Shown here in pieces: positions 15,383-42,528 of a stretch of DNA of 42,951 bases; the stretch's first letter is position 1; every line of letters starts with the position of its first letter. The translations under genes and the position numbers were made by a program. Below the pieces are notes generated by a model. That model searched no databases. It saw only the letters and a list, made by a program, of their open reading frames with translations, and was not told where the DNA came from. The DNA is from an uncultured Eubacteriales bacterium. GTDB lineage: Bacteria > Bacillota > Clostridia > Christensenellales > Aristaeellaceae. The DNA is taken from NCBI GenBank assembly GCA_902773895.1, contig CACYGB010000009.1, forward strand, positions 1 through 42,951, written 5' to 3'.

Positions 15383-16141
15383 ATGGCGCTGACACTGCAT
15401 TTGAAGGATTTCGACGGGCCGCTGGACATGCTTCTGTTCCTGATCGGCAAAGCGAAAATCGACATCAAGGACATTTTTGTTTCCCAGGTGACGGACCAGT
15501 ACATTCAATCGGTGCAAAGCGCGCCGGACCTGGATATGGATGACGCCAGCGCGTTTATCGACATGGCAGCCACGCTGTTGGAGATCAAAAGCCGGGCGCT
15601 GCTGCCCAAGCCCAAGGTGGAAGACGAGGAGGACCCGGAGCAGGCCCTGATCCGGCAATTGGAGGAATACCAGCGCTTCAAGCAGATCGCCCAGGATATG
15701 CAGGGCTTTGAAAAAGCCGCGGCGCTGATGTACCAGAAGCTGCCGGAGGAATATCCGCTGCCGCCGCCCACGCTGGAATTGACCGGACTGACCATGGACG
15801 GGCTGCTGTCCGCCTTCGCCCGGGTGATGGCCCGGGTGAAAGAAACGGAAGAGGAAGAACCGGTGCACGTGGCCCGGCGGATCATCCGGGACGAATATAC
15901 CGTTCCCCGGTGCACCGCCCACATCCTGAAGCGGCTGAAGAAGGGGCCCGTGCGGTTTGAGGAGCTGTTTTCGCCCACGCCATCCCGGGACGAAGTGGTG
16001 ACGCTGTTCCTGGCGCTGTTGGAATTGCTGCGCCTGGGGCGCGCCGGCGTCCGGCAGGACGGCATTTTCGGCGATATGATGCTGGAGCCGCGGGACAGCG
16101 GCCCCATGGAGGGAGATTTGCAGATCGATGGATACACCTGA
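15383..16141 (+). CDS. scpA: Segregation and condensation protein A (kleisin)
   Basis: ScpA is the kleisin that bridges the SMC ATPase heads and binds ScpB in the bacterial condensin that organises and segregates chromosomes. The 252-residue sequence starts with the family signature LKDFDGPLDMLLFLIGKAKIDIKDIFVSQVTDQYI, followed by AATLLEIKSRALLPKP. An acidic linker and a C-terminal winged-helix region (FEELFSPTPSRDEVVTLFLALLELLRLG) follow, the part that contacts the SMC head. It overlaps scpB by 14 nt. smc itself is not in the window. Confidence 0.96.
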   Translation: MALTLHLKDFDGPLDMLLFLIGKAKIDIKDIFVSQVTDQYIQSVQSAPDLDMDDASAFIDMAATLLEIKSRALLPKPKVEDEEDPEQALIRQLEEYQRFKQIAQDMQGFEKAAALMYQKLPEEYPLPPPTLELTGLTMDGLLSAFARVMARVKETEEEEPVHVARRIIRDEYTVPRCTAHILKRLKKGPVRFEELFSPTPSRDEVVTLFLALLELLRLGRAGVRQDGIFGDMMLEPRDSGPMEGDLQIDGYT

Positions 16142-16676
16142 GCTGGCGCATGTGATTGAAGCCATCCTGTTTGTGGCGGGAGAACCGGTGGACGTGCGGG
16201 AGCTTCAAAAGGCGCTGGAAGTCACCGAGGATGAAACCCGGCTGGCCATCGACGCCCTGGACAGCGATTATTCCTATCACCGCCGGGGGATCTGCCTGAA
16301 GCGCTTCGGCACGCACATCCAGCTGTCCACCCGGGCGGAATACGCGCCGTATGTGGAGCGGCTTTTGCAGCCCATCCAGAAGCAGAGCCTGAGCCAGTCC
16401 GCCATGGAAACGCTGGCGGTGGTGGCCTACCGGCAGCCGGTGACCAAGCTGGAAATCGAGGCGGTGCGCGGCGTGAAGTGCGATTATTCGGTGCAGTCCC
16501 TGGTGAACAAGGGGCTCATCGAGGAGGTGGGGCGCAAGGAAGCGCTGGGGCGGCCGATCCTGTACGGCACCACCGATACGTTCCTGTCCCATTTCGGGCT
16601 CAGCTCCCTGGAGGATCTGCCCAAGCCCCCGGAGGAAGCGCCGGCGGAGGAGAACGCCGAACCGCTGGTACCCTGA
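16128..16676 (+). CDS. scpB: Segregation and condensation protein B
   Basis: ScpB dimers bind the ScpA linker and complete the SMC-ScpAB complex. The 182-residue protein has two winged-helix domains. The first is VIEAILFVAGEPVDVRELQKAL. The second contains the family signature QSAMETLAVVAYRQPVTKLEIEAVRGV and GLIEEVGRKEALGRPILYGTT. The C-terminal ~25 residues are an acidic, proline-rich tail. The 14-nt overlap with scpA suggests coupled translation. No clear terminator follows; the next 100 nt are the AT-rich repeat region before the deoB-type gene. Confidence 0.96.
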   Translation: MDTPELAHVIEAILFVAGEPVDVRELQKALEVTEDETRLAIDALDSDYSYHRRGICLKRFGTHIQLSTRAEYAPYVERLLQPIQKQSLSQSAMETLAVVAYRQPVTKLEIEAVRGVKCDYSVQSLVNKGLIEEVGRKEALGRPILYGTTDTFLSHFGLSSLEDLPKPPEEAPAEENAEPLVP

Positions 16677-16684
16677 ACAGATGC

Positions 16685-16752
16685 AAAAGAAATGATAATC
16701 TACCGGAAATAACTATATAAAAGAAATGATAATCTACCGGAAATAACTATAT
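16685..16752 (+). repeat. Perfect 34-bp tandem duplication upstream of the PPM-PNP fusion gene
   Basis: Two identical, directly adjacent 34-bp copies (16685-16718 and 16719-16752) occupy most of the AT-rich gap between scpB and the fusion gene. Each copy contains GATAATCTACCGG and AACTATAT, which continues into TATATAAA. No canonical -35 box is seen, so they may be duplicated operator or promoter sequence, possibly for the DeoR-type regulator downstream, or a recent slippage event. Confidence 0.9.
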
Positions 16753-16774
16753 AAAGGAAAAGAGGCATGATCGG

Positions 16775-18760
16775 ATGAAGCGCGTGATTTGGATCGTCCT
16801 GGACAGCGTAGGCGCGGGTTCCCTGCCGGACGCTGCGGCATACGGCGACGAGGGAGCCAACACCATCGGCCATATTGCGCAGAAAATGCCGTTGAAGCTG
16901 CCCAATATGCAAAAAATGGGCCTGGGGTACCTGCCCGGGCTGAACCTGCCGGAATGCGAAGAGGGCGGCGGCGCCTACGGCCGGGCCATCGAGGTATCCA
17001 AAGGCAAGGACACCACCACCGGCCACTGGGAAATGGCGGGACTGAGGCTGGACCAGCCCTTCCCTTTGTATCCGGACGGCTTTCCCCGGGAGGTGATGGA
17101 CGCCTTTGAAGCGGCCATCGGCACCAAAACGCTGGGCAACAAGCCGGCGTCCGGCACGGAAATCCTGGATGAACTGGGGGAGGAGCACCTGCGCACCGGG
17201 TATCCCATCGTGTACACCTCCGGGGACAGCGTGTTCCAGATCGCCTGCCACGAGGAGCTGTATCCCCGGGAAAAGCTCTACGAAATGTGCGAAATCGCCC
17301 GGAAGCAGCTGGTGGGCAGGCACGCCGTGGGCCGGGTCATCGCCCGTCCCTTCATCGGCACGGGCAAGGGGCATTTTGAACGCACCGGCGGCCGGCGGGA
17401 TTTCTCCCTGGAGCCCATCGGCGACACGGTGCTGGACGTGATGAAGGCCCACGGGTTCGACGTGCTGGGCGTGGGCAAGATCGAGGACATTTTCGCCCAT
17501 CGGGGGCTGACGGAAAGCAACCACGCCGCCGGCAACCCGGCCTGCGTCGACGCCGCGCTGCAGGATCTGGACAAGCCCTTCAACGGCCTTTTGTTCATCA
17601 ACCTGGTGGATACCGATTCGGTGTACGGCCACCGGCGGGACGTGAAGGGCTACGGGGAAGCGCTGGAGTACTTTGACCGCCGGCTGCCGGAATTCACAGC
17701 GAAGATGACGGAGGAAGACCTGCTGATCATCACCGCCGATCACGGCTGCGACCCCACCTGGCACGGCACCGACCACACCCGGGAATATGTGCCCATCCTG
17801 GTGTGGAAAAAGGGCATGACCGGGCATCATCCCCTGGGCACCCGTTCCACCTACGCCGATATGGCGGCCACCATCGCCGATTTCTTCGGGCTGGAGGAGC
17901 GGTTCGGCGCCGTGTCCTTCCTGCACGAAATCGAAGCGGGGCCCGGGAAGGCCATGCAGCGTATCCAGCGGGCTGCCGATGTGATCGAAAACACCCTGGG
18001 CCGGGCGGACGTCGCCGTGGTGCTGGGCAGCGGGCTGGGGGATTTCGGGAAGGAACTGAAAAACGCCAGGGAACTGTCCTACGCCGACGTGCCGGATTTT
18101 CCCCGTTCCACCGTGGCGGGCCACGCGGGCAAATTCATCCTGGGCGAACTGGGCGGCAAAAAGGTGCTGCTGATGAGCGGACGCTTCCACAGCTACGAAG
18201 GCCATCCCATGGAGGATGTGACGCTGCCCGTCCGGGTGATGCGCAGGCTGGGCATCGAAAAACTGATCCTTACCAACGCTGCCGGCGGCGTCAACACCGA
18301 TCTGCACCCCGGTACCCTGATGCTGCTGGCGGACTTTATCAACCTGTCCGGCAAAAACCCCCTGACCGGGCCGAACCTGGACGCCTTCGGGCCCCGGTTC
18401 CCCGATATGACCAACGCGTTTGACCGCGGGATGCGCACCATCGCCCGCATGGCCGCTGCCGAACTGGGCATCGACCTGCGCAGCGGCGTATACTGCTGGA
18501 TGAACGGACCCACCTATGAAACCCCGGCGGAAATCCGCATGGCCCGCACCCTGGGGGCCGACGCGGTGGGCATGTCCACCGTGCCGGAAACCATCGTGGC
18601 GCGGCACTGCGGCATGAAGGTGCTGGGGATCAGCTGCATTACCAATATGGCCGCCGGCGTGCTGGATGAGCCCATCAACCACCAGGAAGTGATGGAGATG
18701 GGCCGCCGCGTCCGGGGTGATTTCGCCGCACTGCTCACCCGGGTGATCGAACAGCTATGA
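16775..18760 (+). CDS. Fused phosphopentomutase-purine nucleoside phosphorylase
   Basis: One uninterrupted 661-codon frame joins two normally separate enzymes of nucleoside salvage. Residues 1-~388 are a full-length phosphopentomutase (DeoB). It has the metal site VLDSVGAGSLPDA, the phospho-acceptor region KDTTTGHWE (Thr80-82), DTDSVYGHRRD, and ADHGCDPTWHGTDHTRE. Residues ~393-661 are a trimeric-type purine nucleoside phosphorylase with phosphate loop GSGLG (418-422), GRFHSYEG (469-476), NAAGGVN (501-507), GPTYETPAE (579-587), MSTVPE (600-605) and ITNMAAG (622-628, base-binding Asn624). Phosphorolysis gives (deoxy)ribose-1-phosphate, which the mutase domain converts to the 5-phosphate, so the two domains catalyse consecutive steps. 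The junction (~385-400) is short and lacks an internal ribosome binding site. GGAAAAGAGG lies upstream of the ATG. Confidence 0.95.
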   Translation: MKRVIWIVLDSVGAGSLPDAAAYGDEGANTIGHIAQKMPLKLPNMQKMGLGYLPGLNLPECEEGGGAYGRAIEVSKGKDTTTGHWEMAGLRLDQPFPLYPDGFPREVMDAFEAAIGTKTLGNKPASGTEILDELGEEHLRTGYPIVYTSGDSVFQIACHEELYPREKLYEMCEIARKQLVGRHAVGRVIARPFIGTGKGHFERTGGRRDFSLEPIGDTVLDVMKAHGFDVLGVGKIEDIFAHRGLTESNHAAGNPACVDAALQDLDKPFNGLLFINLVDTDSVYGHRRDVKGYGEALEYFDRRLPEFTAKMTEEDLLIITADHGCDPTWHGTDHTREYVPILVWKKGMTGHHPLGTRSTYADMAATIADFFGLEERFGAVSFLHEIEAGPGKAMQRIQRAADVIENTLGRADVAVVLGSGLGDFGKELKNARELSYADVPDFPRSTVAGHAGKFILGELGGKKVLLMSGRFHSYEGHPMEDVTLPVRVMRRLGIEKLILTNAAGGVNTDLHPGTLMLLADFINLSGKNPLTGPNLDAFGPRFPDMTNAFDRGMRTIARMAAAELGIDLRSGVYCWMNGPTYETPAEIRMARTLGADAVGMSTVPETIVARHCGMKVLGISCITNMAAGVLDEPINHQEVMEMGRRVRGDFAALLTRVIEQL

Positions 18761-18775
18761 CGAAGGATGGTGACC

Positions 18776-19555
18776 ATGGAACGCAATGTGTATATCCCTG
18801 CCGAGCGGCAAAAGAAAATGATGGAATACATCGAACTGCATACCAGCGCGCAAATCCATGAGCTGGCGCAGGAATTCCATGTTTCGGAAGCAACCGTGCG
18901 CAGGGACCTGGATGAACTGGATCAGCAGGGCGTGCTGCGCCGCACCCACGGCGGCGCCATCAAGATGGACCGCAGCACCTCCTATGAGCACATGTACGCC
19001 GAAAAAATCGGCCTGATGACGGAAGAAAAACAGCGGATCGCCGCCAGCGCGGCCCGCATGGTGCACAACGGCGACACCGTGATGATCGACTCGGGCACCA
19101 CGGCGTTCTTCATTGCCCAGGCGCTGAGCCGCCACGAGAACCTGACCCTGATCACCAACGATTTGTACATTGCCTATCAGACTCCCATTCATCCCTCATC
19201 CACCCTGATCGTTACCGGCGGCACCCGCCGCCAGGGACGGCAGGAACTGGTGGGTACGCTGACGGAGAATTTCGTGCGCGACACCCACGTGGACATTGCG
19301 TTCGTCGGCGCCGACGGCATTGATTTTTCCGCCGGCATCACCAACGCCAACTTTGCCGAGGTGGGGGTGAAGCGGCTGATGATCGCTTCGGCCCACCGCA
19401 GCGTGATCGTGGCGGACCACAGCAAATTCGGCCGGGTGGCCCTGGCGCGGATCTGCGATCTGCAGGAGGGCGGCCTGATCCTGACCGACAGCGGCCTGGA
19501 TGAGGAAATGCTGAACCGGCTGCGCAAGCTGGGCGTGGAAATGGAACTGGTATGA
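18776..19555 (+). CDS. DeoR/GlpR-family transcriptional regulator
   Basis: This 259-residue regulator has an N-terminal DeoR helix-turn-helix, ERQKKMMEYIELHTSAQIHELAQEF followed by VSEATVRRDLDELDQQGVLRRTHGGA, which is the family signature. The C-terminal DeoRC sugar-phosphate sensor domain (DSGTTAFFIAQAL, LTLITNDLYIAY, VTGGTRRQGRQELVG, FVGADGIDFSAGITNAN, VADHSKFG) follows. Such proteins usually repress catabolic operons until a phosphorylated sugar binds. It starts ~15 nt after the fusion gene, so it likely controls that operon; (deoxy)ribose phosphates are plausible effectors. I chose ATG 18776 because AAGGATGG sits 5-12 nt upstream. An ATG at 18767 lies too close to it. Confidence 0.92.
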   Translation: MERNVYIPAERQKKMMEYIELHTSAQIHELAQEFHVSEATVRRDLDELDQQGVLRRTHGGAIKMDRSTSYEHMYAEKIGLMTEEKQRIAASAARMVHNGDTVMIDSGTTAFFIAQALSRHENLTLITNDLYIAYQTPIHPSSTLIVTGGTRRQGRQELVGTLTENFVRDTHVDIAFVGADGIDFSAGITNANFAEVGVKRLMIASAHRSVIVADHSKFGRVALARICDLQEGGLILTDSGLDEEMLNRLRKLGVEMELV

Positions 19556-42319: not shown

Positions 42320-42408
42320 GGAGAGATGGCCGAGTGGTTTAAGGCGCCAGTCTTGAAAACTGGTGATGTCGCAAGACACCGGGGGTTCGAATCCCTTTCT
42401 CTCCGCCA
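42320..42408 (+). tRNA. tRNA-Ser (anticodon TGA)
   Basis: The acceptor GGAGAGA pairs with TCTCTCC, followed by discriminator G and encoded CCA. The anticodon loop CTTGAAA carries TGA. A long variable arm and GGTTCGAAT T-loop identify a class II serine tRNA. Confidence 0.96.
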
Positions 42409-42436
42409 TTTTTTTGCCAAACGCTCACAGGCCCAT

Positions 42437-42528
42437 GGAGAAGTACCCAAGTGGCCGAAGGGGCTCCCCTGCTAAGGGAGTAGTAGGAGTGAATCCTAGC
42501 GAGAGTTCAAATCTCTCCTTCTCCGCCA
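42437..42528 (+). tRNA. tRNA-Ser (anticodon GCT)
   Basis: Acceptor GGAGAAG/CTTCTCC with encoded GCCA end, anticodon loop CTGCTAA carrying GCT, long variable arm and TTCAAAT T-loop. Its 3' end lies 60 bp from the end of an integrase gene and is the probable attachment site of the element to the right. Confidence 0.96.

Follow-up and report, generated by a model that had tools for sequence, protein, structure and literature searches.

A phosphopentomutase-purine nucleoside phosphorylase gene fusion, apparently formed by loss of an intergenic stop codon, in uncultured gut and rumen bacteria

Results and Discussion

One open frame encodes two complete enzyme domains

Can phosphopentomutase (DeoB) and purine nucleoside phosphorylase (PNP) be made as one polypeptide from one gene, and if so, how was the stop between them lost, is a free PNP still produced, and does the joined form bring a benefit? 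These questions are raised by an open frame of 661 codons plus a TGA stop at positions 16775-18760 (+ strand) of the window, the whole stretch of 42,951 nucleotides that was analysed. The initial annotation had read this frame as a complete DeoB followed by a complete PNP of the trimeric type, and this description was borne out by equivalog matches, intact catalytic residues and a translation of 661 residues that has no internal stop.

The DeoB domain (16775-17926, + strand; residues 1-384) is matched over its length by NF003766, the NCBIfam equivalog model for DeoB, with 530.9 bits against a cut-off of 256, and TIGR01696 scores 485.8 bits against this half (cut-off 341.2). The trimeric-type PNP domain (17951-18757, + strand; residues 393-661) is matched by the NCBIfam equivalog model for PNP, NF006054, over residues 393-660 (387.1 bits, cut-off 218) and by TIGR01700 (PNP-I) over residues 412-658 (345.4 bits, above the cut-off of 293.35). 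The Pfam matches are consistent with these domain calls, and a model for the hexameric DeoD class was absent among the 16 families listed for the fused protein.

The catalytic positions of DeoB were mapped on the Bacillus cereus phosphopentomutase (PPM) via an alignment. Thr80, which we take to be the phosphorylated catalytic threonine, and Asp10, Asp281, His286, Asp322, His323 and His334, presumably the metal ligands, are invariant in all fused sequences covering those positions (19 or 20 aligned sequences; the 21st, L098, was inspected by eye). In the PNP half Ser419, His450, Arg470, His472, Tyr474, Ala502, Glu582, Met600, Ser601, Asn624 and His636, which we assume from human PNP to be the active-site positions, are invariant in 20 sequences. 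By eye, the DeoB motif of L098 reads TSDHG, and its DeoB and PNP catalytic residues are intact.

Within its own genome (G000; a draft that is 83.97% complete) the whole protein has a single match at E ≤ 0.001. Two further proteins of this genome belong to PF01048, a broader phosphorylase family, so the cell may have other phosphorylases besides the fusion.

The fusion is present in most genomes of the genus

A stop-free fusion was found in 21 of 29 genomes of the same genus, all of which are drafts. Twenty copies are full length, measuring 660 or 661 residues from the DeoB start to the end of the PNP match, and the copy of G026 is cut by a contig end. The other eight genomes are unfused: five (G002, G003, G005, G007 and G012) have one TGA inside a collinear deoB-PNP match, G006 has the pair divided between two contigs with the TGA present, and G001 and G004 have deoB and PNP as separate genes. 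An assembly or read error that erased a stop might be suspected in a draft of 137 contigs like the genome of the window, but with the same junction open in 21 of the 29 genomes, six of these 21 at least 90% complete, and with junction codons that differ among the fused genomes, such an error has a negligible chance of being the explanation. The fusion is thereby confirmed as real, neither a chance event nor a read error; the stop or frameshift near 17930-17970 on which the initial annotation had made its reading depend is contradicted by the open junction of the 21 genomes.

A survey outside the genus finds the two genes separated by stops

The taxonomic spread of the two-domain architecture was followed in overlapping samples of the family, order, class and phylum, and among the matches listed the stop-free full-length form occurs in the genus only. 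Outside the genus none was present among the matches listed for the family (150 genomes, six of them of the genus), where matches beyond those listed score weaker than a full-length match would give. The same holds among the matches listed for the order (396 genomes, E ≤ 1e-170), the class (391 genomes, E ≤ 1e-160) and the phylum (398 genomes, E ≤ 1e-150); sampling of this kind could miss very diverged fusions below the thresholds and fusions interrupted by a contig end. Every full-length collinear match outside the genus (nine rows in the order, 23 in the phylum and 11 in the class sample) has its two domains separated by one or more stops, unlike the fused gene. Adjacent deoB-PNP pairs of the same phylum share the gene order of the fusion, and some keep one frame across a short gap. 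The collinear, stop-separated pairs of the class and phylum samples agree with the premise of the initial annotation that the two are normally adjacent, separate genes.

Eight family rows outside the genus, which match in DeoB only and have open frames of at least 639 amino acids, were considered as fusions and rejected: in all eight a stop lies 4-8 codons past the DeoB match. A pattern scan of genome contigs, the single scan with which other phyla were sampled, yielded 55 loci, 13 of them fused at the junction and all 13 assigned to the genus. In two named isolates that possess both genes, L071 and L073, these are separated by a stop and a change of frame. A natural DeoB-PNP fusion was not found among the open PMC papers that the searches listed; most subscription papers and bioRxiv lie outside this scope. 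Both domains are ordinary, and the architecture joining them is new and its occurrence unreported as far as these searches reach.

The junction has the pattern expected after loss of a stop codon

The junction (17927-17953, + strand; residues 385-393, EIEAGPGKA) was compared codon by codon with that of the unfused sisters. In six of these (G002, G003, G005, G006, G007 and G012) it reads GAG-GNN-TGA-NNN-ATG-GAN-TNN-ATG, so that PNP starts in the same frame as deoB, 3 nt (one codon) past the TGA. In G001 and G004 the PNP start lies 2 nt past the stop and in another frame. Twenty of the fused sequences, including the window, form one clade (see below), and their junction codons align with those of the six sisters free of gaps, counted from either side. 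Codon 389 of the window (GGG, 17939-17941) is the site of the stop TGA in the six sisters and codon 391 (GGG, 17945-17947) is the site of their PNP start ATG. Across the clade the former stop position is occupied by a glycine codon in 18 rows and by a proline codon in two, and the ATG of the former start has been replaced. The second methionine of PNP is retained in 20 of all 21 fused rows, and in L003 the ancestral Asp-Tyr-Met persists after the lost start. The remaining fused genome, G028, has a junction that is one codon shorter, with the stop replaced by CGG or GTG, depending on where the deletion is placed; there is no ATG at this junction, and a TTG, a potential start codon, is found one codon before the position of the second methionine.

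A coupled pair of the form deoB-TGA-NNN-ATG-PNP probably became one gene by an in-frame mutation of TGA to a sense codon, and the junction pattern is the residue that would be expected of one stop-to-sense substitution followed by drift. We regard it as highly probable that this stop-loss fusion of deoB and PNP is a genuine bifunctional enzyme with two catalytic domains in one polypeptide. Following an apparent intergenic stop loss, the joined enzyme has been kept across many species of these uncultured bacteria from gut and rumen. Mutation of a stop codon is named as a route to overlapping genes in the available text of PMC10666635.

The strong internal start of PNP has decayed

The ATG at codon 394 (17954-17956, + strand) is the ancestral second methionine of PNP and could act as a weak internal start. 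At this codon the pairing with the anti-Shine-Dalgarno sequence amounts to -6.6 kcal/mol in the window, and at the PNP starts of the unfused genomes to between -9.3 and -9.8 kcal/mol in all eight rows (L102: -9.3). The 20 fused rows with the second methionine range there from -0.4 (L003) to -6.9 kcal/mol, with 11 rows at -5.9; L014 has no ATG there, and the TTG of G028 reaches -6.1 kcal/mol. As a background, 521 in-frame internal ATGs of the fused genes have a median of -3.1 kcal/mol, and 19% of them reach -5.9. In 17 of the 21 fused rows glutamate is encoded at two or all three of the codons preceding the second methionine, which makes this stretch weakly similar to a ribosome-binding site. 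Judged from these pairing energies, the strong PNP start is gone and a weak internal start is possible.

A second product is conceivable: alongside the full-length fusion, which would be just as real, free PNP might be initiated at codon 394 and form an untethered pool. The retention of the second methionine would fit this, as would the scores of the 17 rows with glutamate codons (-3.3 to -6.9 kcal/mol) and the TTG close to the junction in G028. However, both the strong Shine-Dalgarno sequence and the original ATG have been lost, L003 has a score of -0.4 kcal/mol and L014 no ATG, and the second methionine aligns with an internal methionine of the unfused PNPs, so it can be retained without acting as a start. 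With the signals for an internal start eroded, it is unlikely that two separate proteins are made, and we infer that the fused gene is translated into a single product. Together, the genomes of the genus provide a before-and-after series for a gene fusion: unfused sisters whose PNP start lies close downstream on the one hand, and fused relatives with an eroded stop, start and ribosome-binding site on the other.

Two fusions are the better reading of the trees

A tree of both domains without the junction (40 rows) unites 20 fused rows, including the window, in one clade (99/94) and groups G028 with the unfused G001-G004 (96/86), so that the fused or unfused label requires two changes. Forcing all 21 fused rows into one clade changes the log-likelihood by -19.5 units (p-AU 0.0172), a result to be read as moderate because the test, though its group was defined by junction state, was run after inspection of the tree. 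The tree of a marker protein that we take to be SecA (25 of the 29 genomes, two rows being less than half filled) likewise needs two changes and has weak inner branches; here G028 branches first, next to all other members of its group, and a single gain with one later loss is as costly as two gains.

This placement suggests that G028 represents a second, independent fusion. Alternatively, a single fusion may have been undone by re-splitting in one unfused lineage or in two, which would accord with the moderate rejection of a single fused clade (p 0.017) and with the equal costs and weak inner branches of the SecA tree. Yet the fused-gene tree is satisfied by two gains and needs more steps for one gain with losses, and re-splitting would need to recreate a stop, an in-frame or nearby start and a GGAGG motif wherever the other unfused lineage possesses them. 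Re-splitting is rather improbable in our view, and two fusions are the better reading. The probable second event adds to the series on the origin of gene fusions.

Where source labels name a gut site, it is rumen or omasum for all five loci of the fused clade (L041, L045, L048, L054 and L056) and rectum or cecum for all four unfused loci (L050, L051, L058 and L060, from G005, G006, G007 and G012). The label of G028 is Lapin (rabbit). This split by gut site tracks the tree and may reflect ancestry rather than function. In three genomes (G017, G022 and G021; L147, L149 and L150) the SecA match breaks at query residue 876-878 and resumes at 845-846 further along the contig, which suggests an insert or repeat near the SecA C-terminus in part of the genus.

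Structure model and predicted chemistry

An AlphaFold monomer model, calculated with a 29-row alignment, has a mean pLDDT of 87.9 and a pTM of 0.80. At the modelled junction a DeoB helix (residues 383-387) is followed by a coil (388-391) and the first PNP helix (392-407). Residues 283-286, a stretch that includes one metal ligand, have a pLDDT below 50. Foldseek relates the DeoB half to the B. cereus PPM (51% identity, TM 0.92 by target length) and the PNP half to the Clostridium perfringens PNP 8swu (52% identity, TM 0.96 by target length), with three 8swu chains hit. The DeoB half shares the full-length domain, the catalytic threonine and the metal ligands with the B. cereus enzyme (PDB 3m8w), but its C-terminus runs via a coil of about four residues into a second enzyme. 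Similarly, the full-length domain of 8swu, which belongs to the PNP-I/PunA class, is common to the fusion, as reflected in the score above the TIGR01700 cut-off, whereas in the fusion the N-terminal PNP helix is attached to DeoB, and neither the original start codon nor the ribosome-binding site seen in the unfused sisters survives.

One ribosome would produce a 661-residue protein in which this short coil links two complete catalytic domains, and the fusion would fix the stoichiometry of DeoB and PNP at 1:1. The PNP half is likely to convert a purine (deoxy)nucleoside and phosphate to the base and (deoxy)ribose-1-phosphate, which the DeoB half would then convert to the 5-phosphate. Because the PNP domain matches the trimeric class and resembles 8swu, of which three chains were hit, a PNP-type trimer bearing three mutase domains, as proposed in the initial annotation, is plausible by analogy. 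Ribose-1-phosphate could be channelled between the sites, and the fused form may carry an advantage.

One-pot cascades of ribokinase, phosphopentomutase and nucleoside phosphorylase exist in vitro (PMC8073115). As far as the available text of that source goes, they use the same two consecutive reactions, run toward nucleoside synthesis, with apparently separate enzymes as opposed to the natural single polypeptide described here. Enzymatic nucleoside synthesis employs phosphopentomutase together with purine phosphorylase, and the fusion offers this pair naturally as a single chain; the fused gene is also a direct route to testing the effect of tethering on flux.

Selection on the fused and unfused genes

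From 190 pairs per domain, the 20-member clade has a median dN/dS of 0.14 in DeoB and 0.21 in PNP. For seven of the eight unfused sisters the medians are 0.14 in DeoB (21 pairs, of which 20 were usable) and 0.20 in PNP (21 pairs). By this measure both domains are under purifying selection, and no extra constraint is visible in the fused form.

The near equality of fused and unfused genes would fit a neutral tethering, in which the loss of the stop was tolerated as order, frame and spacing already fitted, and which brought no kinetic benefit while leaving the fusion itself real. The same-frame TGA-NNN-ATG spacing in six of the eight unfused sisters points the same way. Against it speak the presence of the fusion in every genome of the 20-member clade, all whole copies measuring 660-661 residues, and the probable second origin in G028. 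On balance we give neutral tethering slightly less than even weight. A far-reaching version of the selective reading, that two independent stop-loss fusions arose within the genus and were fixed because co-localised sites pass on (deoxy)ribose-1-phosphate, is improbable in our view. If true, it would turn the genus into a replicated experiment of nature, with the unfused sisters as controls.

Neighbourhood of the fused gene

An open reading frame that presumably encodes a regulator with a DeoR-type N-terminus (18767-19555, + strand) begins 6 nt downstream of the fused gene, and co-transcription of the two is possible. Homologues of this regulator were found at 15 of the 21 fused loci and in one of the eight unfused genomes, counted within flanks of about 1.5 kb, some of which are cut by contig ends. 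Directly upstream lie two genes (15383-16676) that we take to be scpA and scpB. Homologues of scpB adjoin deoB in many relatives, which is an unusual neighbour for a nucleoside-salvage gene. In the interval from scpB to the fused gene a 34-bp unit is repeated in 2.2 copies with a 97% match (16685-16760). In the nearest relatives, L002 and L003, the ribosome-binding site of deoB follows closely after scpB without this repeat stretch. The unit was considered as a dispersed element and rejected, as it occurs in one place only in its own genome. Just past the repeat stretch is a mini-frame, ATG-ATC-GGA-TGA (16767-16778), whose end overlaps the start codon of the fused gene. Elsewhere in the window, a tandem pair of tRNA-Ser genes with the anticodons TGA and GCT is located at 42320-42528.
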